Source of the DNA: Maritalea mediterranea
Lineage (GTDB): Bacteria > Pseudomonadota > Alphaproteobacteria > Rhizobiales > Devosiaceae
NCBI RefSeq assembly: GCF_021568695.1
Contig: NZ_JAKGTI010000001.1
Coordinates: forward strand, 124,001 to 188,000
Direction of reading: 5' to 3'
DNA: 64,000 bases
This document shows, in pieces, positions 55,502-63,217 of the stretch. The notes under the pieces were generated by a model that did no database searches, was not told where the DNA came from, and worked only from the letters and a program-made list of their open reading frames with translations. Within the stretch, counting starts at the first letter, position 1. Each line of letters starts with the position of its first letter. The position numbers and the translations under genes were made by a program.

Positions 55502-56056
55502 ATGACCAGCGTGCCAGAACTATTGGACAAAGATTTGTCCCTTCTGCTTGTCGATGATGACAAACCCTTTTTAACCCGGCTCGAACGCGCCATGCAAAAA
55601 CGCGGCTTTGACGTGCGCACGGCCGACAGCGTCGCTGCTGGCATGGCCCAGGTTAAATCCAACCCGCCCGCCTATGCGGTGGTGGATATGCGCCTTGAAG
55701 ATGGCAACGGACTGGAAGTGGTGTCCACGCTAAAGGAAAAGCGGCCCGATGCCCGCACTGTGGTGCTCACCGGCTATGGCAATATCGCCACTGCGGTAAC
55801 CGCCGTGAAGCTCGGCGCGGTTGACTATTTGGCCAAGCCCGCCGATGCCGATGATGTGTACAAGGCCCTGATGGCGGACGAAGATGAGATCAAAGCCGAT
55901 CCCCCCGAAAATCCCATGTCTGCTGACCGGGTCCGGTGGGAACATATCCAGCGGGTTTATGAATTGTGTGACCGCAATGTGTCTGAAACCGCCCGCCGCT
56001 TAAACATGCACAGACGGACCTTGCAACGTATTTTGGCCAAACGCGCCCCGCGCTAA
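55502..56056 (+). CDS. regA: Response regulator RegA/PrrA/ActR
   Basis: The partner of RegB, 184 residues. The receiver domain has the acidic pocket DDD at 18-20, the phospho-acceptor D62 (VVDMRLEDGNG), T90 and K112 (YLAKPAD). A proline-containing linker leads to a Fis-type HTH (about 145-182) with ETARRLNMHRRTLQRIL, identical in style to RegA. It is encoded directly after regB. No senC/prrC copper chaperone gene is nearby, unlike Rhodobacter. Confidence 0.95.
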   Translation: MTSVPELLDKDLSLLLVDDDKPFLTRLERAMQKRGFDVRTADSVAAGMAQVKSNPPAYAVVDMRLEDGNGLEVVSTLKEKRPDARTVVLTGYGNIATAVTAVKLGAVDYLAKPADADDVYKALMADEDEIKADPPENPMSADRVRWEHIQRVYELCDRNVSETARRLNMHRRTLQRILAKRAPR

Positions 56057-56148
56057 ACAATTTGTCGCTCAGATAAGCTTTTGCTTTGCGTGGTAAATCT
56101 CGGCTGCTAAGAATTGCAGGGCGGGACGATTTGGCGGAAGGAAAAGCG

Positions 56149-57738
56149 ATGAGCGTAGTATTGTCATTCCATGGGGCTTCGGGCACCGTAACCGGATCGT
56201 GCTATCGGGTCACCCATCCAGGCGGGCAGTTTCTGGTGGATTGCGGCCTGTTTCAGGGCAACAAGGCTGTACGCGCCCTTAATGACAAGCCTTTTCCATT
56301 CGATCCGCAAAAGCAGGATTTTGTGCTGCTCACCCACGCGCACATTGACCATGCGGGCCTGCTGCCCAAATTGATCAAGCACAAATTTGAGGGCCCCATT
56401 CACGGCACCGAACCCACCACCGGCCTTATGGATTATCTGTTGCCCGATAGCGCCGGCATTCAGGAATATGAAGCCGAGCGGCAAAACCGCAAACGTGCCC
56501 GGAAGGGCGAACCGCTGATCGAGCCGCTTTATACCAAAGAGCACGCAGAAAAAGCCATTTCCCGTTCGAAAGGGCATGCTTACGAAGAGTGGTTTGAGCC
56601 TGGCCCCGGCGTGAAAGCGCGCTTTTGGAATGCCGGGCATATTCTGGGCAGCGCCTCGATTGAAGTGCATGTTCAAGACGAAGACGGCAAAACCATCAAA
56701 ATGTTGTTTTCTGGTGATTTGGGGCCAGACGAAAAGGTGTTTTATCTCGAACCCCATGCCCCATCTGGCTTCGATTACATCCTGTGCGAAAGCACCTATG
56801 GCGGGCGAGAGCGCGATGACTATTCGCTGGAAGAGCGACGGGCCGCGCTAAAAAAAGAAATCAATGAGGCTTTGGCGCGCGGCGGCAATCTGGTCATTCC
56901 TGCTTTTGCCGTGGAGCGCAGCCAAGAGTTGCTGCATGATATCGGTGTTTTGATCAAGCGCGGCGAAATAGATCCGCAACTGGTCTTCCTCGATTCGCCT
57001 TTGGCCCGCCGGGTCACCAACGTGTTCAAACGTCATGCGGCTGATTTACAGGATGTGGAACTGGAGCCGGAAGAATTGTTCGACGATGATCGCTTCCGGA
57101 TTGTGGAATCTGTTGAGGAAAGCAAAGCCATTAACCGCATTCATGGCGGGGCCATCATCATGTCTGCCTCCGGCATGTGTGACGCTGGGCGCATCAAACA
57201 CCATCTACGCAACAATATTTCCGACCCCAAGTCCACCATTCTGTTCGTCGGCTATCAAGCACCCGGCACATTGGGACATGTGATCAAATCGGGTAAAAGT
57301 GAAGTGCGCATCCATGGCAATAACCACTATGTGCGCGCGGCCATCCGCTCGATCGGCAATTATTCGGCCCATGGTGACCATACAGAATTGATGGACTGGA
57401 TCGCCGAACGGCTGCCCGCCCACGGTGCGATTTTCCTCACCCATGGCGAGGACGAGAGCCGCGACGCGATGAAAAAGGCATTGGCGGAAAAAGGATTGGG
57501 GCCTGACAAAGTGATCGCCCCGCAATTGGATGACCAATTTGAATTGCGGGCCAATGGCGTGGGCGATGTGCATCAGCCCGAGACCATGCGCATCGACCCG
57601 CAGCAATTCACACAGGATTGGTCCGCCGAATATGCGCGCTTCTCTATTGAACTGGGGAATATTTTGACGAAAGAACAAAGCGACAAAAAGCGTCTTGAGT
57701 TGATGAAGCGGCTACGTGCCGAACTGAAAAAAATCTAA
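56149..57738 (+). CDS. Metallo-beta-lactamase/beta-CASP family RNA-processing-type protein
   Basis: A 529-residue protein with a zinc-binding MBL fold fused to a beta-CASP domain, the architecture of RNA nucleases related to CPSF73/Ysh1. The HxHxDH motif is THAHIDHAG (H63, H65, D67, H68); later markers are NAGHILGSASIEV, SGDLG, the CASP motif FAVERSQELL and SAHGDHTELMDWI. The ATG at 56149 follows an AAGGAAA site. Nuclease activity is inferred from family. It precedes two ATP-grasp genes with 20 bp between, suggesting co-transcription. Confidence 0.9.
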   Translation: MSVVLSFHGASGTVTGSCYRVTHPGGQFLVDCGLFQGNKAVRALNDKPFPFDPQKQDFVLLTHAHIDHAGLLPKLIKHKFEGPIHGTEPTTGLMDYLLPDSAGIQEYEAERQNRKRARKGEPLIEPLYTKEHAEKAISRSKGHAYEEWFEPGPGVKARFWNAGHILGSASIEVHVQDEDGKTIKMLFSGDLGPDEKVFYLEPHAPSGFDYILCESTYGGRERDDYSLEERRAALKKEINEALARGGNLVIPAFAVERSQELLHDIGVLIKRGEIDPQLVFLDSPLARRVTNVFKRHAADLQDVELEPEELFDDDRFRIVESVEESKAINRIHGGAIIMSASGMCDAGRIKHHLRNNISDPKSTILFVGYQAPGTLGHVIKSGKSEVRIHGNNHYVRAAIRSIGNYSAHGDHTELMDWIAERLPAHGAIFLTHGEDESRDAMKKALAEKGLGPDKVIAPQLDDQFELRANGVGDVHQPETMRIDPQQFTQDWSAEYARFSIELGNILTKEQSDKKRLELMKRLRAELKKI

Positions 57739-57758
57739 GCGCCAAAGGTAAGCATGCG

Positions 57759-58730
57759 GTGATTATATTTATTGGCCCCAATCGGCAGCGTGGAAACATC
57801 AAGAAGTTCAACGATTACGAATTGGCGCCCAAATATAAACAACGCACTTTTAATTGGCTTTTTCGCGCGCGTAGCTTGCCAGGTGCGACCTATATTTTCA
57901 CCTTTTTGGATCGGCTTGACCCGTCTGAACGACGCTTGGCAGGCAAAATCTATCGCCACATTAATCAGCAAGGGGCCGGCTTTCGGGCGTTAAATGATCC
58001 TACCCGGGTGTTAAATAGATATCGGCTTTTACGTGCCCTTTATGCGCAGGGCTTCAATGACTTCAATGTTTATTTGGCTTGTGATGCACCCACGCCCAAA
58101 CGCTTTCCCGTGTTTATTCGGCGTATCTCACAATCCTTGCGACCATTAACAGGCCTTTTGCAAAATCAGGTCGAGCTAAACCAACATATTGCAACTCTTG
58201 AAGAAAATGGCGAGCCGTTAGATGACTTGATGGTGATCGAGTTCTGTGCGGTGGAGATCGAGCCGGGGATTTATCAGAAATATTCCGCCTATCGAGCCGG
58301 TGGGCGGGTCAGTTTGAATTACACCATCTGTGAGGCCAATTGGCAGGTCAAGGTGGGTGAGATTGATATTGTGGATCCCAAACTTTACGAAATCGAGGCC
58401 AATGACCTGAAGGCAAATGCTTACGTGGACCAAATGCGCACAGTGTTTGAGATGGCCAACATAGAGTATGGACGGGTCGATTTCGGCTTGGTGGATGGGC
58501 GGCCACAAGTCTATGAGATCAACTTCAATCCCGAGTTTCGGACCACTGAATCATTGTCGCAGGTTGAGCGACGCAAACAAAATGTGGCGCTGGCCGTGCA
58601 ACGGCGGTTTGAGGCCGTTGCCGCCCTCGATATAAACACCACGACAAAGAGGTGCCCCAACCTCAAGGATGCAGAGTTGACCGCATTTAGGTGGCGTTTT
58701 TGGCGCAATTATGCGCCCCAAAGATATTAG
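57759..58730 (+). CDS. Uncharacterised ATP-grasp-type protein, copy A
   Basis: A 323-residue protein starting at a GTG (VIIFIGPNRQRGN). The C-terminal third has the ATP-grasp metal motif with D241, E253 and N255 (YGRVDFG...VYEINFNPEF). A central KRFPVFIRR segment (114-122) resembles the strand of the ATP-grasp subdomain, and LDDLMVIEFC (154-163) is another family-like strand. It ends with an unusual conserved tail, RWRFWRNYAPQRY. The fold implies ATP-dependent ligation of a carboxylate to an amine or thiol. The substrate is unknown. Copy B begins 10 bp after the stop. No signal peptide is seen. Confidence 0.8.
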   Translation: MIIFIGPNRQRGNIKKFNDYELAPKYKQRTFNWLFRARSLPGATYIFTFLDRLDPSERRLAGKIYRHINQQGAGFRALNDPTRVLNRYRLLRALYAQGFNDFNVYLACDAPTPKRFPVFIRRISQSLRPLTGLLQNQVELNQHIATLEENGEPLDDLMVIEFCAVEIEPGIYQKYSAYRAGGRVSLNYTICEANWQVKVGEIDIVDPKLYEIEANDLKANAYVDQMRTVFEMANIEYGRVDFGLVDGRPQVYEINFNPEFRTTESLSQVERRKQNVALAVQRRFEAVAALDINTTTKRCPNLKDAELTAFRWRFWRNYAPQRY

Positions 58731-58739
58731 GAAAATAGA

Positions 58740-59711
58740 GTGATTATATTTGTTGGCCCCAATCGGCAGCGGGGCAATGGGCTTGGGTTCAAAGCATTTG
58801 ACGACGCGCCAGCCACACGGCACAAGACCTACAATTGGCTTTTTCGGACGCGACGTTTGCCCTCTGCAACCTATATTTTCACTTTTATTGACCGGTTGCA
58901 TCCACGGGAGCGGCGCTTGGCAGCCAAGATTTATCGGCATATCAATGCGGCGGGCGATGGCTTTAGGGCATTGAACGATCCCGCCCATGCCAAAAACAGA
59001 TATGGCCTACTTCGTGGACTACACCAAGCGGGCATTAATGATTTTGACGTTCATCTGGCGGGAGACGCGCCAAAACCGTCTCGATTTCCGGTGTTTCTCC
59101 GCTATTTGTCGGTCAGCTTGCCACCGGTCGCTGGCCTAATAAACTCACAATCTGAGCTGGATAGTACGATTGAGGCGCTGGCGTTGGCAGGTGAACCGTT
59201 GGACGATCTTATTGTCATCGAATATTGCGCGGAACCCTTTGAACAAGACTATTTTGTCAAGCTTTCGGCTTATCGCATCGACGACCAGTATATGCTGGAT
59301 CTATTCCTTTACGATCAGAAGTGGTACGTAAAATATGGTGATGTTGATACAATGCCACCAAACTTTGCGGAGACCGAGGCGAGGTTGCTTCGGGAAAATA
59401 AATGGATCGACCAGGCTCAACAGGTCTTTGACCTGGCCCAAATTGAATATGGGCGCGTAGATTTTTCATTGGTGAACAATCGCCCGCAATTTTATGAAAT
59501 CAACTTTCATCCGCAGTTCACGATGTCGGAATATGAGTCTAAATGCCCGAAACGACTAGAAAATGCCAAATTTGCGGCCCGCCGGCGTATGGATGCCATG
59601 AAAGTGCTAGACGCGGGACCGTCCGAAAGAGCCATCGCGAACATTCATGATTCTGAGGTGACCGCGTTTCGTCTGCGCCCTTGGCGCAACTTCGCGCCAC
59701 AGCGATATTAG
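58740..59711 (+). CDS. Uncharacterised ATP-grasp-type protein, copy B
   Basis: A tandem paralogue of copy A, also 323 residues and GTG-started (VIIFVGPNRQRGN). The two align without gaps; I count 172 identical positions. It retains D241, E253 and N255 (YGRVDFS...FYEINFHPQF), RFPVFLR and LDDLIVIEYC, and ends RLRPWRNFAPQRY. The middle segment (181-210) and residues 261-300 diverge most, so substrate specificity may differ. It begins 10 bp after copy A and ends 4 bp before the convergent mmcB stop. Function unknown. Confidence 0.8.
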   Translation: MIIFVGPNRQRGNGLGFKAFDDAPATRHKTYNWLFRTRRLPSATYIFTFIDRLHPRERRLAAKIYRHINAAGDGFRALNDPAHAKNRYGLLRGLHQAGINDFDVHLAGDAPKPSRFPVFLRYLSVSLPPVAGLINSQSELDSTIEALALAGEPLDDLIVIEYCAEPFEQDYFVKLSAYRIDDQYMLDLFLYDQKWYVKYGDVDTMPPNFAETEARLLRENKWIDQAQQVFDLAQIEYGRVDFSLVNNRPQFYEINFHPQFTMSEYESKCPKRLENAKFAARRRMDAMKVLDAGPSERAIANIHDSEVTAFRLRPWRNFAPQRY

Positions 59712-59715
59712 ACGT

Positions 59716-60195
59716 CTAAAGCGCGCTTGGCCCCGGGTCCATCAAACTGTGAATCCGATCTGCACCCAACCGGGCCAGCTTGATCATCAAGGTTTTACGG
59801 CGGGCGGGTGCCATTTTATCAAGGGCAGAAGGGCGCATCATATCGGCCCCGTGCCCGTCAGCCACAATCAACCCTTCGCTTTCAGGAAAGATCTCCGCCG
59901 CCAGCTCCGGCGGTTTGGCAAAAAAGAACCGGTCGCAAAATTCGTGATATTCGGGCCACTTTTGGTCGACGCGAAAATCCTCGAGGCTGGATTTGATCTC
60001 CACGATCCAGATTTCGCCCTTGCGCGTGACCCCCAGCAAATCGGCGCGGCGGCCATTGGCCAGCGGCACTTCGGCAAAGCATGTAATATCATGTTGTGCC
60101 CGCAAAAACCGCATGCAACCACGCTGCACTTTCAGGGCGGTTTCCGACTGGCGGCCATCCACGATTGGGGGCAAATTTTGCAACGAATCTGACAT
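59716..60195 (-). CDS. mmcB: MmcB-family DNA repair protein
   Basis: A 159-residue PD-(D/E)XK nuclease-like protein. The active-site residues are seen in RRADLLGV and IVEIKSS (D...ExK). Caulobacter MmcB is an SOS-associated DNA repair factor acting outside recombination. The QRGCMRFL segment and the terminal DPGPSAL tail fit the family. I find no alphaproteobacterial LexA box (GTTC-N7-GTTC) just upstream by eye. imuA/imuB/dnaE2 are not in the window. It converges with copy B of the ATP-grasp pair. Confidence 0.88.
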   Translation of the reverse strand: MSDSLQNLPPIVDGRQSETALKVQRGCMRFLRAQHDITCFAEVPLANGRRADLLGVTRKGEIWIVEIKSSLEDFRVDQKWPEYHEFCDRFFFAKPPELAAEIFPESEGLIVADGHGADMMRPSALDKMAPARRKTLMIKLARLGADRIHSLMDPGPSAL

Positions 60196-60240
60196 GCATA
60201 AAGTTTAGCGCAAATCTGGAGGGGCGCAATGCGAATGAAA

Positions 60241-62549: not shown

Positions 62550-63149
62550 TCAGCCCGCAGCGCTCCAGGAGACATGGCTGTGGCGTTTGCTGAAATGCCC
62601 AACCGTTGTATCGCCGATAATTTGCACGCCGTGTGCCGAGTCGCGACGGATGTCAATGCGGCGATAGCCTTGGCTTTGATTGAACACCCGTTGGCCGCTT
62701 GGCCGCTTTTTACCAAAGCGGCGCCGGTCGGGCCCGAAATAGGTGCTGGTTTCATAATAGGTGATGGGCGTGTTGAGCTGGCGGCGCAGCCGCGGCATCA
62801 TCTGCTTCGGGTCCCAGGGCAGGGTCAGGATATCGTCAAACCCGATCTGGATGCATTGGGAGATAAGCATCGGCAATGGCACCTCCACAAAGCAGATTAA
62901 TGGCGAGAAGCGCACGCGCGGGCGCGTGCTGTTGCGGATATTCTGCACCTGAGATTTGATCTGCCCCAATTCCCCGTCGCTGGCAAACAGAAAGAAATTG
63001 TTGGGCACCTTGCGGGTCAACTCTTCTGTCGCCAGCAAGCCGGAATAGGGCGTGATTTGCCGAAACCCCAAATCGCGCGCCAAATCATTGATCAGCGCAA
63101 TTTGAGCGTTATTGCCGCCCATATTGGTCGCCACATCAAAATAACTCAT
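62550..63149 (-). CDS. Degenerate receiver-like protein of unknown function
   Basis: About 199 residues. The middle resembles a response-regulator receiver: IQIGFDDILTLPWDPKQMM matches the terminal helix region, where GADDYLTKPF is usual, but the conserved Lys is replaced by Leu (TLPW), and no clear aspartate pocket is visible at the start. A GPDRRR segment (TYFGPDRRRFG) follows, a motif seen near receiver ends in some alphaproteobacteria. The C-terminus is basic and His/Ser-rich. It lies upstream of the chemoreceptor on the same strand (about 110 bp). Function unknown. Confidence 0.6.
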   Translation of the reverse strand: MSYFDVATNMGGNNAQIALINDLARDLGFRQITPYSGLLATEELTRKVPNNFFLFASDGELGQIKSQVQNIRNSTRPRVRFSPLICFVEVPLPMLISQCIQIGFDDILTLPWDPKQMMPRLRRQLNTPITYYETSTYFGPDRRRFGKKRPSGQRVFNQSQGYRRIDIRRDSAHGVQIIGDTTVGHFSKRHSHVSWSAAG

Positions 63150-63217
63150 GAAATCCCCTAAGCACGCGCACATTCCCTCAACTTATGTGCGGTGGCTAAG
63201 CCCTTATCAGGGTTGAG

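Follow-up and report, generated by a model that had tools for sequence, protein, structure and literature searches.

Tandem ATP-grasp proteins in Maritalea mediterranea as a probable amplified and orphaned branch of a putative peptide-modifying ligase family

The window, a 64,000-nucleotide stretch of the Maritalea mediterranea genome (contig NZ_JAKGTI010000001.1, positions 124,001 to 188,000), holds two adjacent paralogous genes, A and B, whose products were annotated as ATP-grasp proteins. We propose that the pair is an amplified, orphaned branch of an undescribed, putatively peptide-modifying ATP-grasp ligase family, and give this reading a probability of roughly two in three. The clade of the pair is nested among ligases that lie beside a peptide hydroxylase and a small precursor gene, one member of the clade still has these partners, and none were found in the genome of the pair; thus the pair is most likely amplified and orphaned. 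A small lysine-rich peptide served by both an ATP-grasp ligase and an aKG-HExxH peptide hydroxylase would make a testable RiPP class. The pair itself would be a case of a biosynthetic ligase that seemingly outlived its precursor and hydroxylase, multiplied and froze its C-terminus, opening a direct test of how RiPP enzymes turn into stand-alone protein modifiers.

The features of the locus are:
57739..59715, no strand: variable slot from the MBL gene to mmcB, occupied by the pair here and empty in the sister genomes G001 and G002
57759..58730, + strand: gene A, predicted ATP-grasp ligase, 323 aa, GTG start (ORF, BLASTP, model with pLDDT 81.9 and pTM 0.82)
58467..58532, + strand: gene A residues 237-258, YGRVDFGLVDGRPQVYEINFNP, metal-site block with D241, E253 and N255
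58686..58727, + strand: gene A C-terminal tail, residues 310-323 (top-conserved 14-mer among the 10 clade members)
58740..59711, + strand: gene B, paralogue of gene A, 323 aa, GTG start (53% identity, gapless)
59448..59513, + strand: gene B residues 237-258, equivalent metal-site block (BLASTP and family alignment of 36 members)
59667..59708, + strand: gene B C-terminal tail, residues 310-323 (BLASTP and clade conservation)

The gene pair and its family

The initial annotation described two GTG-start genes of 323 residues, and both ORFs were recovered. Its count of 172 identical positions of 323 (53%) in a gapless alignment agrees with BLASTP (220/323 positives, 0 gaps, E 6e-128). D241, E253 and N255, which it named as metal-site residues kept in both proteins, are identical in all 36 aligned family members, and the tail it noted as common to A and B reads FR(W/L)R(F/P)WRN(Y/F)APQRY. 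Neither protein reached the cut-off of any Pfam or NCBIfam model and no characterised ligase was found in these two libraries. A and B are the only copies found in their genome (3.32 Mb, 18 contigs), with no third copy. Between them dN is 0.43 and dS 2.7, while gene B and the first copy of M. mobilis differ by a dN of 0.118 with dS saturated; judged by these rates, the ligase copies are under purifying selection.

The ligase family is rare. It was present in 7 of 101 relatives, in 8 of 136 Devosiaceae genomes at 1e-20, in 24 of 397 genomes of the order at E <= 1e-6 (13 of them under 1e-60), in 5 of 385 genomes of the class at 1e-20 and in 11 of 398 genomes of the phylum (5 under 1e-60). Each tally includes the genome of the window; frames of 380-673 residues that matched with 28-51 bits were presumed other ATP-grasps and not counted. 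Diverged members lie on two plasmid records, from Deinococcus and Paracoccus, the latter (L015:4229-5278) among flippase, O-antigen ligase and glycosyltransferase genes. Searching genome contigs with a single protein gave no match, and with an alignment of nine members of the pair's own clade, four loci. The same alignment found no relative in viral contigs. We dismissed phage matches at E 0.02 that lie over tRNA and HNH/hypothetical genes, and PADLOC returned nothing for four proteins.

We read the surroundings of 36 family genes at 29 loci. L067 was left out because its gene runs off the contig, as was a partial third match in G1023, and duplicates were counted once (L073-L075 are L016-L018, L127 is L018 and L076 is L117). 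At 13 of the 29 loci the ligase gene and a gene encoding 315-346 residues with an HExxH motif run divergently. Each of the 13 encoded proteins scores above the cut-off of 40 for TIGR04267, 'aKG-HExxH-type peptide beta-hydroxylase', with 82.8-112.2 bits. By eye, each of these 13 loci also has at least one small ORF that carries a leader-like motif, mostly LD..KLLGF[RK]L and then GxK repeats, as in the L021 precursor, MIKLDHTRLLGFKINGSVGAKLGIKVSAKVGGKPVEKID; the loosest fits are those of L020 (RLVGFN) and of L061 and L064 (LFGF). A profile of seven peptides recovered others that had not been used to build it, in L117 (3e-11), L118 (1e-10) and L119 (0.004). NCBIfam gave nothing for five precursor peptides beyond one weak NHLP match (E 0.12). 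Lys and Gly abound in the cores and acidic residues are few: among 11 precursors, Asp and Glu after the leader number 0 in L118 and L020 and 1-5 in the other nine.

Ligase, hydroxylase and small ORF form an apparent three-gene RiPP cassette. Among the 136 Devosiaceae genomes TIGR04267 occurs in four, all within the eight that have the ligase, an overlap with a chance probability of 70/13,633,830 if the two were independent, the true figure being larger owing to relatedness. The other 16 loci showed no hydroxylase on the stretch fetched; they are four arrays from the clade of the pair and 12 others, some with quite different neighbours; all 10 genes of the diverged outer branches fall among these 12.

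The cassette also varies in layout. L061 (9265-10494) and L064 (9004-9905) are a multi-precursor variant, with several small ORFs carrying the LFGF motif and an RST.ARRG-like core, then one aKG-HExxH gene. At L119 (7126-10436) one aKG-HExxH gene and one precursor gene lie between two ligase genes; intact cassettes with two ligases per precursor therefore exist. A tandem ligase pair was also seen in a distant member of the class (L123:6935-8841), where no hydroxylase was found on the 10.7 kb contig. L022, L065 and L066 form a diverged branch (support 100/99), in which L022 (8924-10931) has a methyltransferase-like neighbour (PF13649 at its cut-off) with an HCxxCxxxH stretch, and L065 (9621-10502) a neighbour with a similar stretch.

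In the tree of the 36 genes the window pair belongs to a clade of 10 rows, here the tail clade, which also includes L117 (support 100/99). It is nested in a set of 26 rows (99/98) that contains all 14 hydroxylase-linked ligases, indicating common descent with the cassette ligases. L117 comes from a Devosia nanyangense MAG. It ends in the tail NYAPERY, and its ligase, precursor (VKLDASKLLGFRLIASENRANAAASVKLGAKQGSKLGSKIGSKVGTKVG) and hydroxylase lie beside RegB, RegA and an MBL gene, with an MCP-like stretch between; no mmcB was seen on the piece fetched. The nine remaining members come from four genomes, as arrays of two or three copies whose loci show no partner.

There are two copies in the window, two in M. 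mobilis (G005) and three in Maritalea porphyrae NBRC 107169 (G003). Gene B is closest to the first M. mobilis copy (82%), and gene A is 53-57% identical to either copy of that species. These numbers and mismatched relationships show that the composition of the pair is not conserved, so the proposal that two ligases act in succession or as a heterodimer finds no support.

We searched for the missing partners in the genome of the window. It has no TIGR04267 match, and no hydroxylase lies beside the window ligases. Leader and precursor profiles found no precursor with a KLLGF[RK]L-type leader at E <= 10. The same searches found known loci (G008 and G026 in one, these plus G792 and G855 in the other), controls whose own peptides sat in the profiles; a Maritalea precursor with a changed leader would be missed. 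Leader matches at five places in G002, G003, G005 and G059 (E 0.024-2.7) were taken as chance, since each sits inside a longer ORF or overlaps one that runs in a different frame or on the other strand. We infer partner loss in the Maritalea lineage from the one MAG. The simplest history would be that a cassette in the slot lost its partners and multiplied there, and that it is gone entirely in some species; alternatively, the ligases may have been gained by transfer.

The C-terminal tail

Of the 310 14-mers of the protein, the one formed by the last 14 residues ranks first in conservation across the 10 clade members (0.93 versus 0.64 over residues 1-300), and the tail ends in the same residue in all 10. 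Other branches end in SRWxP, TRWTP or TRRWTP, SPxRP and SPKMP. With such varied motifs in several branches, a C-terminal motif is a wider, variable feature of the family, and the RxRxWRNxAPQRY tail is, by alignment, the tail-clade version of it.

Conservation of this kind is also what one would see if the tail were a leader-like element in cis that fills the leader groove, so that the ligases activate themselves or modify each other's C-termini and need no free precursor. Consistent with this, the tail of L117 contains ELLRFRL and that of L018 ELLQFRL, close to the leader KLLGFRL, and in L020 the ligase tail carries RLVGYRNM where the precursor carries RLVGFNTL. We scored tails with a leader matrix against 389 C-termini of longest ORFs, a rough background that, to judge from its top score, includes a leader-bearing ORF. 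The L117 tail scored 12.0, with a background fraction of 0.0026 at or above it, the two L018 tails 7.2 and 6.1 (0.010 and 0.018), the M. mobilis tails 4.0 and 2.5 (0.031 and 0.041) and the tail of gene B 3.15 (0.036). The tail of gene A, however, scored -0.8 (0.157), short of the 5% level, and those of M. porphyrae -0.2, -5.7 and -1.4 (0.12, 0.53 and 0.19). The tail is the best leader-matrix window of the whole protein in just 4 of 10 clade members, and outside the clade a value of 0.04 or less is reached by L020 alone of the 13 cassette ligases.

Moreover, L117 carries both tail and free precursor, so there is no replacement there, and the idea of the tail as a simple substitute for the precursor was dropped. 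In the model of gene A the tail's last eight residues (316-323) have a pLDDT below 50 and are unplaced. Together these results suggest a weak resemblance between tail and leader, and an in-cis leader is unlikely. Slightly less probable still is the bolder combination in which ATP-grasp ligase, aKG-HExxH hydroxylase and GxK-repeat peptide define a new RiPP class, the Maritalea leader became internalised as the tail, and the tandem copies modify C-termini, each other's or those of other proteins, free of any precursor.

Fold, active site and chromosomal slot

Gene A alone gave six unrelated matches among PDB sequences (E >= 1.3, no ATP-grasp). A profile of 15 family members matched D-Ala-D-Ala ligases weakly, aligning the metal-site blocks at an E of 0.03, which is weak alone. 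AlphaFold2 modelled gene A from ten clade members with a best pLDDT of 81.9 and pTM of 0.82, the four remaining models reaching pLDDT 44.6-71.7. The best model is nearest LysX, RimK and ArgX (Z 15.4-16.3, 251-260 residues aligned), followed by D-Ala ligases, inositol phosphate kinases, glutathione synthetase and PsnB (Z 13.3), and Foldseek gave E values down to 4e-9. By this model gene A is a member of the ATP-grasp superfamily. The structure check suggested with the initial annotation thus yielded the fold and left the tail unplaced. A single-sequence model of gene B has a pLDDT of 37.8; its ATP-grasp fold is predicted from gene A through their 53% identity.

The D...E.N metal-binding residues of the superfamily are D241, E253 and N255, which with R121, W195, G238 and R239 are among the positions invariant in 36 of 36 members. 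ATP-grasps commonly, though not universally, have a Lys on a PxxxK strand and a Gly-rich loop. Here all 36 members have an Arg (R121) at the position aligned with the ATP-binding Lys of D-Ala-D-Ala ligases, and in the tail clade no Gly-rich stretch is apparent by eye in the loop that follows; catalysis is thus not assured. Two further positions are changed in the tail clade. In all 13 cassette ligases from outside the clade residue 126 is H, and in all 10 tail-clade members it is S, and T256, adjoining the metal ligand N255, is F in nine of these and Y in one. L117 has both changes yet keeps its cassette, indicating that the site was altered before the partners were lost. K198 is N in L117 and K in 34 of the 35 other members.

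Folds of this superfamily also include inositol phosphate kinases, so that the proteins might be kinases of small molecules or peptides and not ligases. ITPK1 and PPIP5K2 match the gene A model with Z 13-14, and the Arg in place of the usual ATP lysine would fit. LysX, RimK and ArgX score higher, however, and a precursor peptide and a peptide hydroxylase adjoin the relatives; we consider a kinase improbable.

We examined whether the neighbours point to a function. RegB (NF033792, 581.5 bits, cut-off 350), RegA (NF033791, 324.6 bits, cut-off 250) and a beta-CASP MBL protein (PF10996, PF07521) lie upstream of the pair on the same strand, as annotated, and mmcB (PF06319) lies downstream and convergent. 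The names Cas14 (298 bits, curated cut-off 800) and aCPSF1 (248 bits, curated cut-off 580) were not used for the MBL protein. The gaps are 20 bp from the MBL gene to gene A and 9 bp from gene A to gene B, and none of the 13 terminator-like sites listed falls on the + strand of 55541-60240. A single operon is plausible from these gaps and sites.

If the ligases formed a functional unit with RegBA and the MBL protein, for example in redox-controlled modification of RNA or protein, the shared strand, the short gaps and the presence of RegB, RegA and the MBL gene at all five tail-clade loci examined would be explained. Against this, G001 has no ligase and yet shows RegB, RegA, MBL and mmcB in the same order, and in the ligase-free sister Maritalea genomes G001 and G002 the MBL gene adjoins mmcB, with 2 and 11 bp between aligned ends. 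Likewise, none of the 24 other family loci has RegB, RegA, the MBL gene or mmcB on the stretch fetched, at more than 50% identity. Co-occurrence with the MBL gene thus holds at the tail-clade loci examined and was not seen on the stretches fetched for the others, and the operon, plausible as it is, loses weight as a clue to function. The shared slot reflects shared descent, and a functional unit with these neighbours is likewise improbable.

Two other genes were seen around the slot. A 207-residue protein without a Pfam match (62550-63173) has a conserved counterpart at the corresponding position in both M. mobilis (83%) and M. porphyrae (43%), and in G059 an Acetyltransf_6 gene (PF13480, L018:10706-11719) lies on the opposite strand between the ligase pair and mmcB.

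A reading of the orphan copies as relics without catalytic activity, or as regulators, to which the missing partners and the H126S and T256F changes might point, is very improbable in view of the intact D241, E253 and N255 in all copies, the low dN with saturated dS, the conserved tail, the two or three full-length copies per genome, and L117, which has changes at both positions and still a cassette.

Proposed mechanism and known systems

Fold, family, cassette, tree and the absence of recognisable partners come from computation. From these we infer the rest, namely the chemistry, the binding of the leader, and the activity and substrate of the orphaned ligase branch today. The ancestral form, retained in relatives, would be a ligase with a short precursor and an aKG-HExxH peptide beta-hydroxylase, the precursor consisting of an LD..KLLGF[RK]L leader and a Lys/Gly-rich core of GxK repeats. 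With the leader bound, the ligase would use ATP to convert a carboxylate into an acyl phosphate and then couple it to the core as an amide. With cores so poor in acids, and none in L118 and L020, side-chain graspetide rings cannot be the rule. Most likely a small carboxylate or an amino acid would be attached, either at Lys amines or at the C-terminal end of the peptide. On the way to Maritalea the active site would have been remodelled (H126 to S, T256 to F), the C-terminus turned into a rigidly conserved tail, and the hydroxylase and recognisable precursor lost; the ligase gene would then have been copied two or three times within the MBL-mmcB slot. Purifying selection and intact metal-site residues suggest that the present copies most likely still act, probably by like chemistry in trans on a substrate encoded elsewhere.

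The fold neighbours LysX, ArgX, RimK and PsnB all work through an acyl phosphate, by which they make an amide or ester bond on a peptide or protein. LysX and ArgX, ATP-grasp ligases of the LysW pathway that act on a small carrier protein, are with RimK the closest in fold. They are only 13-14% identical to gene A, and they differ from the family, which has R121 in place of the ATP lysine and whose relatives adjoin a precursor and a hydroxylase. RimK, the ribosomal protein S6 glutamate ligase, is similarly alike in fold (Z about 16) and 11-12% identical to gene A, and no RimK model was among the NCBIfam and Pfam matches listed up to E 1.

Graspetide synthetases of the PsnB and MdnC type share the ATP-grasp fold, and like their substrates the precursors of the family's relatives are short, with a conserved leader motif. 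In contrast to graspetides, whose cores supply acidic donors, Asp and Glu are absent downstream of the leader in 2 of 11 precursors, so side-chain lactone or lactam chemistry cannot be universal here. The main text of a graspetide survey (PMC8939145) does not mention HEXXH or a hydroxylase, and its associated-gene table has no aKG-HExxH hydroxylase family.

Partners described for aKG-HExxH clusters are radical SAM, MNIO, nitroreductase, GNAT and asparagine-synthetase-like proteins (in the parts seen of PMC12636437 and PMC13060819), and the term 'ATP-grasp' does not appear in PMC12636437. No description of an ATP-grasp ligase paired with an aKG-HExxH peptide hydroxylase was found in the literature searched, mostly outside subscription journals. 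The peptide beta-hydroxylase clusters of ChlH, BpmH, PflC/PosC and PesO combine the same hydroxylase family with a precursor peptide, as do the relatives of the Maritalea pair.
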